Source: a virus. From it: a stretch of 24,680 nt of DNA. The stretch's first letter is position 1; each line of letters starts with the position of its first letter. Below the pieces are notes generated by a model that did not search any database, was not told where the DNA came from, and was given only the letters and a program-made list of their open reading frames with translations. Positions 11,512 through 23,108 of this stretch are shown one piece after another. A program made the translations under genes and the position numbers. The stretch covers positions 1 through 24,680 of IMG/VR virus record IMGVR_UViG_3300014839_000038. One strand, 5' to 3'.

Positions 11512-12735
11512 TTAAACGACGTCTGCGACCACAACGGCCCATTCCGGACGAATCCAGAGGTAGCCGTAAAGGACGTCAAGCCTCGTCGGCATCTGGTCGG
11601 TGTTGATGATGTACTGAGTGAGCATCCTCATGGAGATGCCGTCGAACTCGGCCCGACTCGCCTCGTGAACCCCACGAGGGATTTCAAGGTCGGCCACCGC
11701 AAGCGTCACCGCCTCCGGCGCGAAGGCGAAGTTCTTCCGATACGACGTGCTCGCCGCGAGGCCGTTTGACGGATTCACCGCAGCACCATTGATCGGACTC
11801 ACCGTCACGGTCTGAAACTGCACCGCGTTGCCACCAACCGCTGGGATGATAGCGGGGAAGAGCGGAATCGACGTAGCGTTAATCGCTACGTTCGCCGTCG
11901 CAACGAACTGGCACAACTCGCCGGTGCTTTGCTTCGTGATCTTGTTGACCTTGTACACCCCGGCGACAGTGAAGATGTCGCCGATGTTGATCGACCCTGC
12001 AAGGGCATTCACTGCAAGGTTGAGCCCAGTCTGGCCGGACCCGAGGACGGTCGCCGAGCCCTGTGCAAGCGAGCCCGTTGTATGGATGATAGCAGTTTGG
12101 TCCCTCATCCAGATGAACGAGAGCGCATCATACATCCGCCCAGTGATGTACTGATTGGACAACTCAGTCTGCGGATTCAGAAGCCCGGTCAGCGATGCCA
12201 CAACACGAGCTTCCGTGCGGGGACCGTTTACGATCTTCCAATTCGCCGTCGGCGCCGAATTGATGCTGAGCGAAGCTCCGGCATTCAGATACGTCGAGGC
12301 ATTCGGCGTCAGGATGTTGTTATTGGCATCCTGGTTTGCTACGAAGTTGCAAATCCCGCCTTCAGACCCCGACATGATGTCAACCGCGACGGACCCAACA
12401 AGGTTGTTTACCGCAGGGGCCAGAACACGCCTGGAGTAATCATCCAGTGACATGGTCCGATCGACTGTAGTAAACGACACTCCGACGTTCTTCTGGGTCG
12501 AAACGACGAGGGTAGTGGACTGTTCGGCAGTGTCCTGGACCGAAAGGGTCGGACCCGTCGTGACGGTATAGTCATTCGGTAGCCGGATGCGAAGCGCAGT
12601 GCCAATCTTAGCGCCGCCAATGGCGAAGGAATCGTCATACTGCATGTCGACGTTCTGAATGAACGCGTTAGAGTTCTTCCAGAGGCGCACCGCCTCGCGG
12701 GTGATCATGTTGATGGTGAGTAGGGAATTGGCCAC
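11512..12735 (-). CDS. Major capsid (coat) protein, P22-coat family, 407 aa
   Basis: This forms the icosahedral shell. The N-terminus (residues 2-20 ANSLLTINMITREAVRLWK, then QYDDSFAIGGAKIGTALRIR) is typical of P22-like coat proteins, with the QYDDSFA segment and the following K-x-G-x-x-L-R-I-R-x-P strand. Length is close to P22 coat (430 aa). I choose GTG at 12735 because AAGGA lies 8 bases upstream; the in-frame TTG at 12741 is too close to that site. It lies downstream of scaffold and the Tat-coat chimera, behind a hairpin-rich 130-base leader that may support high expression. Its first ~56 codons are duplicated in the chimera. Confidence 0.92.
   Translation of the reverse strand: MANSLLTINMITREAVRLWKNSNAFIQNVDMQYDDSFAIGGAKIGTALRIRLPNDYTVTTGPTLSVQDTAEQSTTLVVSTQKNVGVSFTTVDRTMSLDDYSRRVLAPAVNNLVGSVAVDIMSGSEGGICNFVANQDANNNILTPNASTYLNAGASLSINSAPTANWKIVNGPRTEARVVASLTGLLNPQTELSNQYITGRMYDALSFIWMRDQTAIIHTTGSLAQGSATVLGSGQTGLNLAVNALAGSINIGDIFTVAGVYKVNKITKQSTGELCQFVATANVAINATSIPLFPAIIPAVGGNAVQFQTVTVSPINGAAVNPSNGLAASTSYRKNFAFAPEAVTLAVADLEIPRGVHEASRAEFDGISMRMLTQYIINTDQMPTRLDVLYGYLWIRPEWAVVVADVV
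12632..12717. repeat. Coat N-arm duplication, copy in the coat gene
   Basis: This 86-base segment of the coat gene aligns without gaps to 12960-13045, with 74 of 86 identical by hand count. It encodes coat residues about 7-35. Identity at DNA level, with mismatches clustered around one short stretch (12683-12689), indicates a direct repeat from duplication rather than distant protein similarity. Confidence 0.9.
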
Positions 12736-12741
12736 GGCCAA

Positions 12742-12871
12742 AGTCCTTTCGGGATTGAGCGTAATCGCTCGTCAGGGTGGCGAACCCCGGTTCGGCCGTG
12801 GCAAGGAACTTCGGGTTCCTAGGTCCGAGAGAGTTTAAGGGCCTCTCCGTGCCCGCAGAGTCAGACGGGAC
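12742..12871 (-). promoter_or_regulatory. Hairpin-rich leader upstream of the coat gene
   Basis: The 130-base gap before coat contains four short perfect inverted repeats: 12757-12770 (5 bp, loop 4), 12781-12794 (6 bp, loop 2), 12804-12820 (6 bp, loop 5) and 12829-12847 (5 bp, loop 9). None is followed by a T-run on the minus strand, so none is a standard terminator. No convincing -35/-10 pair is visible. A structured 5' leader, RNA-processing region or message-stabilising element for the abundant coat message is the best reading. Confidence 0.45.
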
Positions 12872-13228
12872 TCAGAACCGACGGAAAGCAGGTGGATTAT
12901 ATGTATTTGGGAGACGTATTTGAAGCACATTACCGACTGCGGCATTCAGAAAAAATGGGTCATCGTACTGCATGTCGACGTTCTGCATGAACGCGTTGGA
13001 GTTCTTCCAGAGCCTAATGGCCTCACGGGTGATCATGTTGACAGTTTGCAAACCATTTCGTCCACTCGAAGCAACCGGAACAATCGCTTGCAGAACCTCT
13101 TCATTTGGCATGACGCTAATCGGCATCAGCGAACTCATCCGAACGATCGCAGGGGCCGCAACAAGGGCCAGAAGACCCCCCAAGAAGCCCCTACGCGACG
13201 GACGAATGATTTCGCTCGGCTCGATCAC
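12872..13228 (-). CDS. Chimera of Tat-type signal peptide and coat N-terminal arm, 118 aa
   Basis: GTG at 13228 is the start: GGAGGA lies 7 bases upstream and the codon overlaps the scaffold stop (GTGA). Residues 11-16 are SRRGFL, a near-perfect twin-arginine (Tat) signal motif, followed by a hydrophobic stretch (residues 17-29, GGLLALVAAPAIV). Residues 62-110 closely match coat residues 7-56 (MITREAIRLWKNSNAF; QNVDMQYDDPFF; IRLPNTY), then the frame ends after 8 more residues (NPPAFRRF). It is therefore not a full coat protein. Roles one could consider are binding scaffold or coat, anchoring capsid parts at the membrane, or a relic of duplication. The good ribosome site, intact frame and coupled start argue against simple decay. 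The function is unknown. Confidence 0.8.
   Translation of the reverse strand: MIEPSEIIRPSRRGFLGGLLALVAAPAIVRMSSLMPISVMPNEEVLQAIVPVASSGRNGLQTVNMITREAIRLWKNSNAFMQNVDMQYDDPFFLNAAVGNVLQIRLPNTYNPPAFRRF
12960..13045. repeat. Coat N-arm duplication, copy in the Tat-coat chimera
   Basis: This is the partner of 12632-12717, a direct repeat with its start about 328 bases away. It encodes chimera residues about 62-90. Protein similarity continues to about residue 110 with more divergence and a one-residue difference in spacing. Confidence 0.9.
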
Positions 13229-14094
13229 GGAATAATCCTCCGGCCAGCACGCTTGTTCACCTCCGCGACGTGCTGTGCCCGACGCTCCATCCAAACCCGC
13301 ATGTCAATGGAGTCGCTCCGTTCCGGATCCTCCGCCGCGATGGCGACATGGGTCCGACCGACGCCAGTGATGGGGGTCAAGGGCTTCGGAGCCCCGGAAA
13401 CCCCCTCCACGTCACGGAACGCGAGTTTGCCCAACTCAACCCCCATCTTCGTCGGCGTAAGCGACATGATCCGGGCAGCTTCGTTGGGGTCCTCGCCCAA
13501 CGCGGCAATGAGCTTCGGGGCAGCGCCGGTGTCGAGCACCGCCTGCAACATACTGAGGTACTTCGACGCCGCTTCGGGATCGTTCTGATCATGAAGGACC
13601 CGCAACGCGGCGACGGCTCCATCAAACTTCTCGGCGCCGAACTCCTTCTGGCCCTCTGCGATGGCGCTATTCAGCGACGTCGTAAAGGTATTCCACGCAG
13701 CGATTTGGGTGGCCTTTTCCTCTGCCAGCTTCGTGGCCTTCTCGTCGATCTGCGCCTGCACCGCGACCGCATCGGCGGATTGGCCCGACTTCAGTTTCGC
13801 GACCTCCCGCTCAAGGTCCGCCTTCTGCGCAGTGAGTTTGTTGATGCGTTCTTGGGTCCGTTCGGCGGCATAGTCACGCTTCGGCGGAACGACCGCTGCG
13901 ATTTTTGCGGCCTCGGCAGCTTTTGCTGCGGCTTCTTGCGCTGCGACCTCCTCGGGCGTCGGCCCGTCCGGCTGGCTCGTCGCGGTCGTCACGGGCTCCG
14001 GAGCAGGTAGCAAAAACGACGCCGGGGGTATTTCTTCGGAGGGGTTTGCACCGCCTTGCGGGGCCACTACAGCGGCAGGATTCGGTGTAGCCAT
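13225..14094 (-). CDS. Scaffolding (capsid assembly) protein, 289 aa
   Basis: The position directly before the coat genes and the composition identify it. It has an Ala/Pro-rich disordered N-terminus, a highly charged coiled-coil region (about residues 73-145, ERTQERINKLTAQKADLERE), a helical middle, and a basic C-terminus (DMRVWMERRAQHVAEVNKRA). P22 scaffold (303 aa) is similarly helical and binds the coat N-arm through a small basic C-terminal helix-turn-helix. ATG at 14094 has AAGGA 9 bases upstream and overlaps the previous stop (TAATG). Its stop overlaps the chimera's GTG. It would direct procapsid assembly and be released before or during DNA packaging. Confidence 0.85.
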   Translation of the reverse strand: MATPNPAAVVAPQGGANPSEEIPPASFLLPAPEPVTTATSQPDGPTPEEVAAQEAAAKAAEAAKIAAVVPPKRDYAAERTQERINKLTAQKADLEREVAKLKSGQSADAVAVQAQIDEKATKLAEEKATQIAAWNTFTTSLNSAIAEGQKEFGAEKFDGAVAALRVLHDQNDPEAASKYLSMLQAVLDTGAAPKLIAALGEDPNEAARIMSLTPTKMGVELGKLAFRDVEGVSGAPKPLTPITGVGRTHVAIAAEDPERSDSIDMRVWMERRAQHVAEVNKRAGRRIIP

Positions 14095-19140: not shown

Positions 19141-20613
19141 TTACGGAAGCGCCGAGGCCGAGATAATTCCGACCGCCGACGAAGTCCCTAACGAGAGCAA
19201 CTGATTCGCCGTACCTGCCGCCCCAACCGACGCGGTGCAAGCGATCAACACACCAGTCGCCGAAGGCACCGTCGTCAGCGTCGACGCAGTCGCAAGCCCC
19301 GAGCACACACTGACGCTTGTCTCGCCCACTTGCGCGAACGCAGTGAACCCCGTGGTATACTGCATCGCCGGCGCAATCCTCATCGGCACCGGGAACTGCA
19401 AGTAGCAATTTGCCACCGTCGTCGCGGTGTTCTCGCATGACGCCACAGGCGCCACGAGCGTCTGCGACTCAAAGTTGTAGTACCAGTACGACAGGTCAAT
19501 GAGGGACTCGACCGACGCCGGACGACGCTCAAACGCGGTGGGAGTAACCACCCCGCTCGGCAACGTCGGAGTCACTGCCGAAGGCTTCGCTTCAAGCTGC
19601 AACCCTTGGAGTTCGATCCAGTCCGTCGTGATCGCAGTCGCGACAGTCGGGGTAAAGCACACCTGCACCGACACATCCGTCACCGCGGTCGTAGTTCCCG
19701 GGATGACAGTCGGAATCGGAGCCGCCACGGCATAACGGGTCCAAGTGGTCGATCCGGGGATCGTCACAAACCCACTCGACCCAAGCGTACCCGAAGTTCC
19801 CGCCACCAACACCGGCACCGCCGCAGTTTGGTTCGTCGGACCGGACGTCCCAAACGTAGTGGCGTTCGTTCCGATCGCGAACTTGGACCCCTGCGACCCG
19901 GCGTATCCCAACGTCGCTTGGGTTCCGACCGCAGCCGCCGCGGAGGAGTACGAAATCTCCACCGTAAAAGCCCCGCCAGTCGCGGACATCCCGGCTCCGT
20001 TTAGTTCGTAGAACGAGAACACCGCATTGGACCCAATCAGCGGAGCGCTCTGGTTGATGTCAAGCGTCTGCCCAACACACTCCAAAGCTCCCGTCGCAGC
20101 CGAAGTTCTCGCCAATCGCAACGCATGGGTTGACCCCAACGCCGGCAACACTTCGGTCGACCCTGACGCAATCGTCACAGTGTTGCTGGAGGTTCCTTTG
20201 CCGTAGAGCCACCAACCATCCGCCGACATCACCGCCGCGGTGGCAGTGATACCGGCGAGTGACGCAATGCCTTTCGTAGTGCTGAGCCGCTGCGCCAAGT
20301 TCGTATCAAAGTCTCCGCCGACGAGCCGATTCACCCCAAACGGAAGCCCCAACACTGACGTTGGCACGAGTTCCGTCTGGGGAAACTGCCCCGACGCCAA
20401 GCCCGTATCGACCGCGGTGGTCTCCGAGCCCGTCAGCGCAGGCGCTCCAGCCGGAACGTACCCCTGACACGACCCATTCACCGTGTTGTAGCAATACTGC
20501 GGGCCACCGACGAGTGGCACATTAGGATACCACCCCGCAGCAACAGCGACCGCCGCTGCTCCGATGCTCGTCGCGGCGATCAGCCCCGCGAGGATCTTTC
20601 TCTTCGCTCTCAT
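19141..20613 (-). CDS. Tail fibre-type protein with Sec signal peptide, 490 aa
   Basis: ATG at 20613 has GAGGAGA 6 bases upstream. Residues 1-26 look like a Sec signal peptide (MRAKRKILAGLIAATSIGAA then AVAVAA), with cleavage likely after VAA. The body is Thr/Ser/Gly-rich beta sequence. From about residue 115 it fits a carbohydrate-binding or jelly-roll type domain seen in phage fibre and host-recognition proteins: GNRLVGGDFD-like strand, ADGWWLYGKG, then WIELQGLQLE and a later FERRPASVESLIDLSYWYYN, resembling the common QLE-x(n)-TxFERRP-x(n)-CQRYY motif of phage fibres. Function is probably host-receptor binding. The signal peptide is odd for a virion protein assembled in the cytoplasm. Confidence 0.75.
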   Translation of the reverse strand: MRAKRKILAGLIAATSIGAAAVAVAAGWYPNVPLVGGPQYCYNTVNGSCQGYVPAGAPALTGSETTAVDTGLASGQFPQTELVPTSVLGLPFGVNRLVGGDFDTNLAQRLSTTKGIASLAGITATAAVMSADGWWLYGKGTSSNTVTIASGSTEVLPALGSTHALRLARTSAATGALECVGQTLDINQSAPLIGSNAVFSFYELNGAGMSATGGAFTVEISYSSAAAAVGTQATLGYAGSQGSKFAIGTNATTFGTSGPTNQTAAVPVLVAGTSGTLGSSGFVTIPGSTTWTRYAVAAPIPTVIPGTTTAVTDVSVQVCFTPTVATAITTDWIELQGLQLEAKPSAVTPTLPSGVVTPTAFERRPASVESLIDLSYWYYNFESQTLVAPVASCENTATTVANCYLQFPVPMRIAPAMQYTTGFTAFAQVGETSVSVCSGLATASTLTTVPSATGVLIACTASVGAAGTANQLLSLGTSSAVGIISASALP

Positions 20614-20688: not shown

Positions 20689-22812
20689 TCAATATGAGAG
20701 TTGTGCGATTAGTTGATGCGCCTGAACGTTAGTTGTAAACCGTCCTGCAATCGAGCCACCACCACTCGACCACTCAAGCGCTTGGTAGTATGTTTGTCCG
20801 ACCGCAGGAACACCCCCATAAGTTCCTGTAGCACTTCCCCCAACAATGCCCCCACCGTAAGCCTGTGCGACACCGCCGGCGCTACTCGCCACAGCGGTAG
20901 AATTCACCCCGACTTCGAAGTCGTAATTCTGTGCGCCACCACCGCTAACGAAGTCGGTAAACGTCACCGAAACACTATCCTCGGACTGCCCCGCCACGAC
21001 CGTAATGCGGTTTTTGTTGCTGGCATCCGATGCAGCGAAGGTGCTAGTTCCCGTTGCTGTCCAACTTGCCTTGCTATCCCGCGCTGCCGCACTCAACGGC
21101 ACGCGGTTGTATTCGTTCCACAACCCCACCCACGATGCGTTGCTTGGGCCGCCGGAAGCTGCCGCAGGGGTCGGATCAAACGTCACCGTTGGAGCAGAAG
21201 TCCATGTGACATTTAGTGTCAGGCTTGATCCCGAAGTAGACGTAGTGGCAATCGGGTTCGCCGGAGTGACGGGGCACAATCCTCCTGTTCGCAGTGCCGC
21301 CGACGTTACGACGCCCCCACCGCTTGCAGTCACCGTGAAGGTGGGTTCTACCGTGCAAACACCATCTGCAAGTGTTGCCACGTCTCCTGTGGTGTAGCTA
21401 GCTCCGCCAGCCGAAACCGTCGCGCTTATCGCCTTATACGGATCAGTTTCGATGGTCCCCAAATACGTACCGAAACCGGCTTTTGGTCCATTTACAACAT
21501 CAACCGAGTTCGTCAGAATCCCACTGACCTTCACAAGCACGTCCCCTGCCGCCGGCGTCGTCACATTCGTCCACGCAACATCCCGTGTCAACGTACAAGT
21601 TCCAGCGTTGTTCCACGCAACCACATCATACACCGATGATGCCACAGCCGCGGCAGGTCCGGCGTTTCCAGCTACCGAATTCGCCAACACATTCGACATA
21701 ACCGGACAAGGTGTTAGCACAAACGCGGAACCATTCCACAACGGCACTCCGTTTCCGCCATAGGGCTGAGCATAGACAGTTCCGACTCCCGTAGCCGATC
21801 CCACCGAAACCGCACTAGATGCCGAGGTTGAAAGCCGAAACTGTGGCGGCGATGCAAAAGTTTGTGCAGCAACAGGCATATACTGAATGATCTGCCATGC
21901 ACCTGATCCAAGATAAACCACCCAAGCACTATCCCCCGCAGCAGTTGTGATGTCAACCCCGTTTGGGGTCTGCATTGTCGCGCTTTCGGTGATCGTCAAC
22001 GCTCCCGCAAACTGCACCAAGTAGAGTGGCCACTGGACACTGGCGGTTGCGCCGAACGACGTAATTGTGGTTGTTCCACTTACAAACGCGTTGTGGTATG
22101 CCAGGGTTCCGAGGTCCGTTGTTGCAGCCGACGCAATCACGACTTGCTGCCCGATTCCCGGTGTCGGAAGTTGGGACCCCAAAATAAACGCATTCAACGA
22201 CGCAGAATACGTCGCGAACTCAAGATTTCCAATGACAATCTCCGAGCCTACAAGAAGCGTCGGACCCGTCGCAGAGTTCTTCTCCAACAACACACTTCCA
22301 AACCCCGAGGCATTAATTGTCGTCGAGGCGGTGTTGGTTGCGTTTGCAATGAACCCAACAGTCTGGCCATCCGTCGCTACGAACCCCGCTGGGGTCGAGA
22401 GGGTAATTGCGTTCGCGGTGCCGGTGGCAGTGCCGTACCAGATAACGCCTCCAGAACCCCCACTACTCGAAGCCGGACTCGCATAAGTGAGCTGATCCCA
22501 CACTACGTTTCCGTTAAGATCCTGAACAACCTGTCGGTATTCTCCGTTGCCCCAAATGATCGCACGGCCGTTTGCGTCCAGCGAAATTGGGTTGGTGTTC
22601 GGAGTATGCCCAAGGGGGTCCTGGTATGTTGGCTTCGGTGTCGTAGTGAACGGTACGTACATATACACATGACCACCGACGTAAGGAGCCCCGTTGCCAT
22701 CACTGAACTGGGTCATGCCGTTCGGCAGGATCGCTTCGGTCTGGGCAACTGCGTCAACAGCGTAACAGATAAGTCCCAACGTCGCTAGGAACTTTGTGAA
22801 TGCAGTTTTCAC
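20689..22812 (-). CDS. Tailspike/fibre with head-binding domain and Sec signal peptide, 707 aa
   Basis: I choose GTG at 22812: it overlaps the preceding stop (GTGA), and the resulting N-terminus is a clean signal peptide (MKTAFTKFLATLGLICYAVD then AVAQ), with cleavage after AVA or AVAQ. Residues about 27-112 (LPNGMTQFSDGNGAPYVGGH; PKPTYQDPLGHTPNTNPISL; DANGRAIIWGNGEYRQVVQD) match the head-binding, tailspike-type N-terminal domain common in short-tailed phages. Next come beta-repeat segments (TANAITLSTPAGF; NTASTTINASGFGSVLLEKN) of fibre type. The C-terminal half is Gly/Ser/Thr-rich beta sequence; I see no depolymerase active-site signature. It would attach to the virion and bind host surface sugars, probably with the following fibre gene. 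Confidence 0.75.
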   Translation of the reverse strand: MKTAFTKFLATLGLICYAVDAVAQTEAILPNGMTQFSDGNGAPYVGGHVYMYVPFTTTPKPTYQDPLGHTPNTNPISLDANGRAIIWGNGEYRQVVQDLNGNVVWDQLTYASPASSSGGSGGVIWYGTATGTANAITLSTPAGFVATDGQTVGFIANATNTASTTINASGFGSVLLEKNSATGPTLLVGSEIVIGNLEFATYSASLNAFILGSQLPTPGIGQQVVIASAATTDLGTLAYHNAFVSGTTTITSFGATASVQWPLYLVQFAGALTITESATMQTPNGVDITTAAGDSAWVVYLGSGAWQIIQYMPVAAQTFASPPQFRLSTSASSAVSVGSATGVGTVYAQPYGGNGVPLWNGSAFVLTPCPVMSNVLANSVAGNAGPAAAVASSVYDVVAWNNAGTCTLTRDVAWTNVTTPAAGDVLVKVSGILTNSVDVVNGPKAGFGTYLGTIETDPYKAISATVSAGGASYTTGDVATLADGVCTVEPTFTVTASGGGVVTSAALRTGGLCPVTPANPIATTSTSGSSLTLNVTWTSAPTVTFDPTPAAASGGPSNASWVGLWNEYNRVPLSAAARDSKASWTATGTSTFAASDASNKNRITVVAGQSEDSVSVTFTDFVSGGGAQNYDFEVGVNSTAVASSAGGVAQAYGGGIVGGSATGTYGGVPAVGQTYYQALEWSSGGGSIAGRFTTNVQAHQLIAQLSY

Positions 22813-23108
22813 GATGAATGCCCCATGAACGTCTTTGCCACGTATGTCACAACCGCTCCACCGGCTGCTGCAAAGCCCGAATACCATGCAATTCGGTTCT
22901 CGAGCCTTGCAACTCGGGGTTCGAGTTTATCATGCACAAATGAGCCAACTTCGTTTCCGGAACTCTGCTCTAGCTTCCGCAATCGCCCATCCAACTCGGT
23001 ATGCTGGTTTGCGTTCCGGGTGTCCTGGATGCCGAGTTGGTCCACAAGCTGCCTCGTTCGTCCGTCAATCTGGCCAACCAAAAAGTGAATGTCATCCAGA
23101 GTTGTCAT
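22809..23108 (-). CDS. Coiled-coil protein with C-terminal membrane anchor, 99 aa
   Basis: The ATG at 23108 has AAAGGA 7 bases upstream. Residues about 1-70 are charged coiled coil (DGRTRQLVDQLGIQDTRNAN; LDGRLRKLEQSSG; PRVARLENRI), followed by one membrane span at about 74-92 (WYSGFAAAGGAVVTYVAKTF). This layout is like XhlA-type hemolysin/holin-associated proteins. Its stop overlaps the tailspike GTG. It may help membrane disruption at lysis or anchor a tail-assembly step. A second protein of the same layout lies directly upstream. Confidence 0.65.
   Translation of the reverse strand: MTTLDDIHFLVGQIDGRTRQLVDQLGIQDTRNANQHTELDGRLRKLEQSSGNEVGSFVHDKLEPRVARLENRIAWYSGFAAAGGAVVTYVAKTFMGHSS

Follow-up and report, generated by a model that had tools for sequence, protein, structure and literature searches.

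Between the scaffold and major coat genes of an uncultivated-virus record lies a short open frame that seems to join a twin-arginine (Tat)-type export signal to a piece of the phage's own coat protein. What such a chimera is, whether it is a maintained gene and why a phage would carry it are the questions raised by this locus. We addressed them in the window, i.e., the whole stretch of DNA analysed (an IMG/VR virus record of 24,680 bases), and in related viral loci, designated here by L numbers.

A chimeric gene in the head operon

As read from the sequence, the frame starts with GTG at 13228 on the minus strand and runs for 118 codons to a TGA stop ending at 12872. In its 5' flank, GGAGGATTATTCCGTGATC, GGAGGA is followed by 7 bases and the GTG, and the TGA of the scaffold gene shares bases with this start codon (GTGA). 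Both features match the original prediction, made from the sequence alone, and the neighbours it named are borne out by phrog_8865 for the scaffold and by PF11651 and phrog_283 for the coat (Table 1). The ribosome site, the overlap and the open frame agree with the prediction, a Tat-type signal fused to a coat segment in a gene that would appear to be expressed.

Table 1. Features of the window at the scaffold-coat junction.
Feature	Position	Strand	Basis
Major coat gene, P22-type; the copy derives from this family	11512..12741	-	PF11651, E 5.6e-24; phrog_283, E 1e-49
Conserved leader 5' of the coat gene, right-hand cassette edge (TCTGAGTCCCGTCTGACTCTGCGGG...)	12742..12885	-	Seen in phages that carry the cassette and in phages that lack it
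Accessory gene, Tat-type signal plus coat-segment copy, 118 aa	12872..13228	-	Open frame, ribosome site, GTGA overlap, orthologues
Copy of coat residues 5-58 (gene residues 58-110)	12899..13057	-	70% aa identity; pS 0.70, pN 0.18
Constant part SRRGFLGGLLALVAAPAIVRMSSLMP, residues 11-36	13121..13198	-	Family alignment; Pfam TAT_signal below cut-off
Scaffold gene, stop overlapping the chimera start	13225..14094	-	phrog_8865 head scaffolding protein, E 9.9e-9
Ribosome-binding site GGAGGA with 7-base spacer, inside the scaffold gene end	13229..13241	-	Sequence; same layout in L022

Two further observations concern the surroundings of the gene. The leader ahead of the coat gene is strongly conserved in the window and its relatives, whether or not they carry the cassette, and contains a small inverted repeat, GAGTCccgtctGACTC; it is possibly a regulatory element. 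Elsewhere in the window, two long proteins (19141-20613 and 20689-22887, minus strand), which are probably tail fibres or spikes, start with Sec-like signal sequences (MRAKRKILAGLIAATSIGAAAVAVAAG...; ...FTKFLATLGLICYAVDAVAQ). Such starts are unusual for virion proteins.

An ancient copy of the coat N-terminal arm

The second half of the protein aligns to coat residues 5-58 with 70% identity over 54 amino acids (E 3e-20 against the window) and to coat DNA with 88% identity over 82 bp. The local alignment score of copy against coat is 199, and the maximum of 1,000 shuffles is 51. The near copy of the coat arm that had been predicted is present, with limits that extend beyond the residues 7-56 first proposed. 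It holds only this part of the coat, and the gene product has no match to the coat models PF11651 and phrog_283 in the two profile libraries. A tblastn search detected no coat-like sequence in the 130 bases from the chimera stop to the coat start; the frame is therefore not a coat gene that a stop codon recently truncated.

Compared with its own coat, the copy has a pS of 0.70 and a pN of 0.18. Such saturation of synonymous sites with conservation of the protein indicates an ancient copy kept as protein. The 88% DNA identity is no sign of youth, because this coat stretch is about 85-92% identical in DNA across many coats, and a distant one (L003) is closer to the copy DNA than the window's own coat. 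Recent duplication and assembly artefact were both rejected on the saturated synonymous sites and the existence of orthologues.

A maintained but accessory gene

Orthologues that share signal, linker and coat segment with the window gene fill the scaffold-coat slot in L013-L015, L018-L020 and L022, the last with the same GTGA overlap and GGAGGA, and at least three other phage lineages are represented. The slot of L021, L034, L040 and L078 holds further frames in which the Tat signal precedes a different second half. The chimera gene is missing from relatives whose coats are 91-95% identical: the scaffold stop directly joins the conserved coat leader in L010, L011 and L017, a clean absence, and no copy occurs elsewhere in the contigs behind L010 (57 kb) and L012 (49 kb). 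Orthologues in the same slot together with clean absence in near relatives point to a maintained accessory gene, not debris.

Orthologue dN is about 0.3-0.5, versus 0.06-0.07 for the coat. The coat-segment copy thus evolves about five times faster than the coat, yet it is conserved at the protein level. The presence of the same gene in relatives and a dN/dS of about 0.2-0.4 where measurable, not near 1, support the original reading of an expressed-looking gene and indicate that it is kept by selection.

The Tat-type signal

The signal half opens with an S/T-R-R-x-F-L type motif, the predicted SRRGFL, at residues 11-16 of the window protein (SRRGFLGGLLALVAAPA), followed by a hydrophobic run and A-P-A. 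RR is invariant in the first eight relatives. A-P-A in the window protein and the family corresponds, on inspection, to a signal peptidase A-x-A site, and is itself part of the search pattern described below. The Pfam TAT_signal model matches residues 10-27 with 17 bits, below its cut-off of 22.7 (E 0.0058). Third codon positions are free across the family alignment of the signal, so the signal is conserved as protein. The invariance of A-A-P-A-I-V-R...M-P carries no weight here, because the search pattern itself required these residues. A structure model of the window protein was uninformative (pLDDT 54).

In the family signal, (S)LMPV(K) is conserved after A-P-A, past the expected cleavage site; conservation beyond the cleavage site is unusual for a signal peptide. 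Against a generic host Tat signal, the motif is absent from 385 genomes of the class of a Rhizobiales MAG that holds a 93% coat relative, a volume too small to establish phage specificity.

A large family of signal-bearing mini-genes

Viral contigs, most of them fragments, yielded 75 loci when searched with the signal part alone, and a DNA pattern for A-A-P-A-I-V-R-xxx-L-M-P-V yielded at least 119 stretches. The pooled searches comprise at least 143 non-redundant members with at least 101 groups of second halves. As judged by these searches, the window gene belongs to a large phage family of mini-genes in which a common signal is combined with differing second halves. Members adjoin terminase genes, HNH endonucleases or DNA methyltransferases, or sit in the head operon as the window gene does; several are separated from the capsid gene by 12-33 kb or run on the opposite strand, and L174, L236 and L265 each have two or three members.

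In cultured phages, neither the signal nor whole members found a match, and the window protein matched only coat genes there. Comparison of the family with family databases returned no matching named family. The searchable literature, with most subscription papers outside reach, contained no relevant description of phage Tat-signal or capsid-fragment genes, and within that scope the original statement that no described system with this layout is known stands.

One subfamily (L229, L176, L189, L216, L231, L241, L245, L256, L276, L277) has a conserved long second half of about 110 amino acids (...LQTAAIESRADEKAMRFFQHPEPQAFRLHHE..., dN/dS mostly 0.1-0.5), and the IMG record number of one of its members suggests an isolate genome. 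A tail collar domain piece forms the second half in L159, L164 and L129:3048-3395 (PF07484 in two; L129 by similarity), and a common cysteine-rich second half (PRCxxCFxxxGMCxxTGGP) is found in L157, L190, L209 and L228.

Capsid pieces among the second halves

Profile scans of 142 second halves (E 0.01) matched 18 PHROG families, of which 3 are unnamed; each of the 15 named ones is a virion protein family (major head, tail, tail fibre, collar). Pfam matches included GP7 and Gp23 major capsid, head-tail connector, collar and putative tail tube, as well as two families of unknown function. When second halves were compared with long open frames in the retrieved loci, 24 members gave in-frame matches, and every match in another frame was a self-overlap or an antisense shadow; random DNA capture was rejected by this test. 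Across the family, second halves have a dN/dS of mostly 0.1-0.5.

Capsid matches are found in 25 of the 143 members listed, versus 2 of 338 control small genes from the same contigs (Fisher p 3e-12), and in 20 of 137 when only loci found by the signal alone are counted. Both control matches lie in a gene block beside a family member, and the one in L095 is a divergent member. About one in six listed members hence holds a detectable piece of a major capsid protein.

These pieces derive from at least five unrelated capsid families (P22-type, GP7-type, phrog_9953-type, Mu gpT-like and Phage_capsid_3) and from different parts of the protein. In different members, GP7-type pieces cover residues 46-110, 113-150, 172-192, 216-243 and 290-342. 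P22-type pieces cover coat residues 5-58, the insertion domain (244-332 in L267, E 1e-20) and the C-terminal end (L236); they measure 20-90 amino acids and contain no complete capsid fold. L040 is an ordered mosaic of an N-arm-like stretch (recognised by eye), residues 81-133 and the C-terminal end of the P22-type coat. The order is permuted in one L236 member, in which PF11651 372-421 (C-terminal end, E 0.05) precedes the spine helix (by eye).

A piece usually matches the capsid family of the phage that carries it. Own capsids of the same type occur behind L236, L128 and L040 (P22-type; the L236 pieces lie 14 kb from its coat), L210, L119, L269 and L281 (phrog_9953-type), L096, L153, L166, L174 and L126 (GP7-type), and L257 and L259 (Mu gpT-like). 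L227, L130 and L140 also have a Mu gpT-like capsid, their pieces being recognised by eye only, and the L265 pieces match the Phage_capsid_3 capsid of L252. No intact coat was seen in L267 and L095, which are short or partial records, and no own capsid was found for L110 and L147 (phrog_9953-type) or L124 (GP7-type). An origin of the pieces from foreign capsids is not supported, the carriers having the same capsid family. Where capsid-derived, the second halves are old, in-frame, protein-conserved capsid pieces behind a Tat-type signal; they are matched to the carrier, accessory and fast-changing.

A TatA-like gene within a block of coat pieces

In L095, a block in a DNA-metabolism region, flanked by an exonuclease and a Sak4-like annealing gene, contains, in order, an insertion-domain-like piece, a Tat signal with the coat spine helix, a TatA-like gene and a Tat signal with the coat N-arm. 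The TatA-like protein (70 amino acids, L095:3793-4005), between two Tat-signal coat-piece genes, matches PF02416 over profile positions 1-51 of 53 (E 3e-4; 20.4 bits versus a cut-off of 21), and its best PDB matches are TatA (E 0.0075). A search for close relatives of this gene found only itself, and the association with TatA is a single case. The first gene of the block (L095:3107-3376) is a small gene without a signal that lies beside the Tat-signal members and resembles, by eye, the P22-type coat insertion domain.

Possible functions

Tentatively, and with rather less than even confidence, we favour capsid mimicry as the function of the capsid-bearing members, a reading drawn from sequence comparison. 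The second half would mimic the phage's own capsid protein and thereby bait a host factor that binds the capsid, most probably an immune sensor that responds to freshly synthesised capsid protein. The bound partner would be pulled to the membrane or exported by Tat; it could leave with the signal half because folded complexes can pass through Tat when a single partner bears the signal. The sensor would be kept away from the real capsid protein. CapRel is triggered directly by newly made capsid protein and Lit by a capsid peptide (PMC9712102), and Tat exports partners that lack a signal (PMC4273604). Also in favour of mimicry are the excess of in-frame capsid pieces over control genes, their match to the carrier's capsid family, purifying selection despite fast divergence, the accessory distribution and the TatA-like gene of L095. 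An arms race of this kind would account for genes that change fast, for phages that carry several pieces and for the many phages that lack the gene. Counting against mimicry, the pieces come from all along the capsid, whereas a single region would be expected from a given sensor. In about five of six members, no similarity of the second half to a capsid can be detected, and the function common to the family may hence be another than mimicry. In the window's own group, the gene is part of the scaffold-coat operon and presumably late, which would suit a pre-emptive bait poorly. The broader proposition that phages dice their own major capsid protein into Tat-tagged baits, once together with their own TatA, to strip the cytoplasm of capsid-sensing immune proteins, as a form of anti-defence, is doubtful.

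Gene birth is the main alternative, and a possible one: new envelope or periplasmic proteins would arise when a Tat-type signal is joined to any available foldable segment, often from the phage's own virion genes, with functions that vary between phages and with capsid similarity reflecting ancestry only. It is favoured by second halves that range from about 70% capsid-like to unrecognisable and by the diverse sources of the pieces, which include head, connector, tail and collar proteins and every part of the capsid protein; a piece would fold only if it were in frame. The parallel presence of two or three capsid pieces in L174, L236, L095 and L265, however, looks like shared purpose, and the copied arm has stayed conserved while synonymous sites became saturated. 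The present data fit mimicry and gene birth alike. We regard as unlikely that the tagged pieces bind or poison the coat of related phages and drag it to the membrane. The pieces belong to the carrier's capsid family and have diverged from the carrier's capsid, as interference would have it, but the carrier's own coat would also be hit, it is not obvious that parts like the insertion domain would inhibit assembly, and no long-lived carrier state was seen in these phages.

The original prediction also suggested that the product tethers the phage's head assembly to the membrane or regulates it, and gave the N-terminal arm a special role through scaffold binding. In the window, L013, L018 and L022, the genes overlap and follow one another as scaffold, chimera and coat, which accords with a tether. 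Nevertheless, close relatives with 91-95% identical coats evidently assemble without the chimera, the distant or opposite-strand position of other members does not fit, and the variety of pieces and the frequent absence of the gene would be left unexplained; we consider this role very improbable. A special role of the N-arm finds no support: in other members the piece is the insertion domain, the spine helix or the C-terminal end of the coat, or comes from an unrelated capsid protein, and several are located far from scaffold and coat genes, some beside DNA-metabolism genes. Among the roles first proposed, a decoy seems to fit the sequences best. It is similarly improbable that the signal alone matters and that recombination left the second half as debris. 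The signal is indeed the sole shared feature and is strongly conserved as protein, but 24 members are in frame, with only self-overlaps or antisense shadows in other frames, and the dN/dS values of the second halves likewise speak against debris.

If capsid mimicry holds, the pieces mark the capsid parts recognised by the host, and the Tat pathway has been turned against bacterial immunity, a use of which we know no earlier case. If the pieces are not baits, the family is a clear natural case of new envelope genes built from virion genes.

Comparison with known systems

The window gene resembles phage morons and other accessory genes in its clean insertion at the scaffold-coat junction and its presence or absence among close relatives. 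To our knowledge, morons are not export-tagged pieces of a phage's own virion proteins. Its second half and those of several relatives derive from P22-type coat proteins (PF11651/phrog_283), of which family members retain only a piece of 20-90 amino acids. As in Tat substrates and the Tat hitchhiker export of Escherichia coli HybOC and PaoABC (PMC4273604), a twin-arginine signal is found on a small protein, which may be able to carry a partner; unlike these, the window gene is phage-encoded and short, its cargo is capsid-derived and the conserved (S)LMPV(K) continues past the likely cleavage site. In capsid-sensing defence (CapRel, Lit-Gol; PMC9712102), the host naturally recognises a capsid segment; those are host systems, whereas here the phage itself carries the segment.
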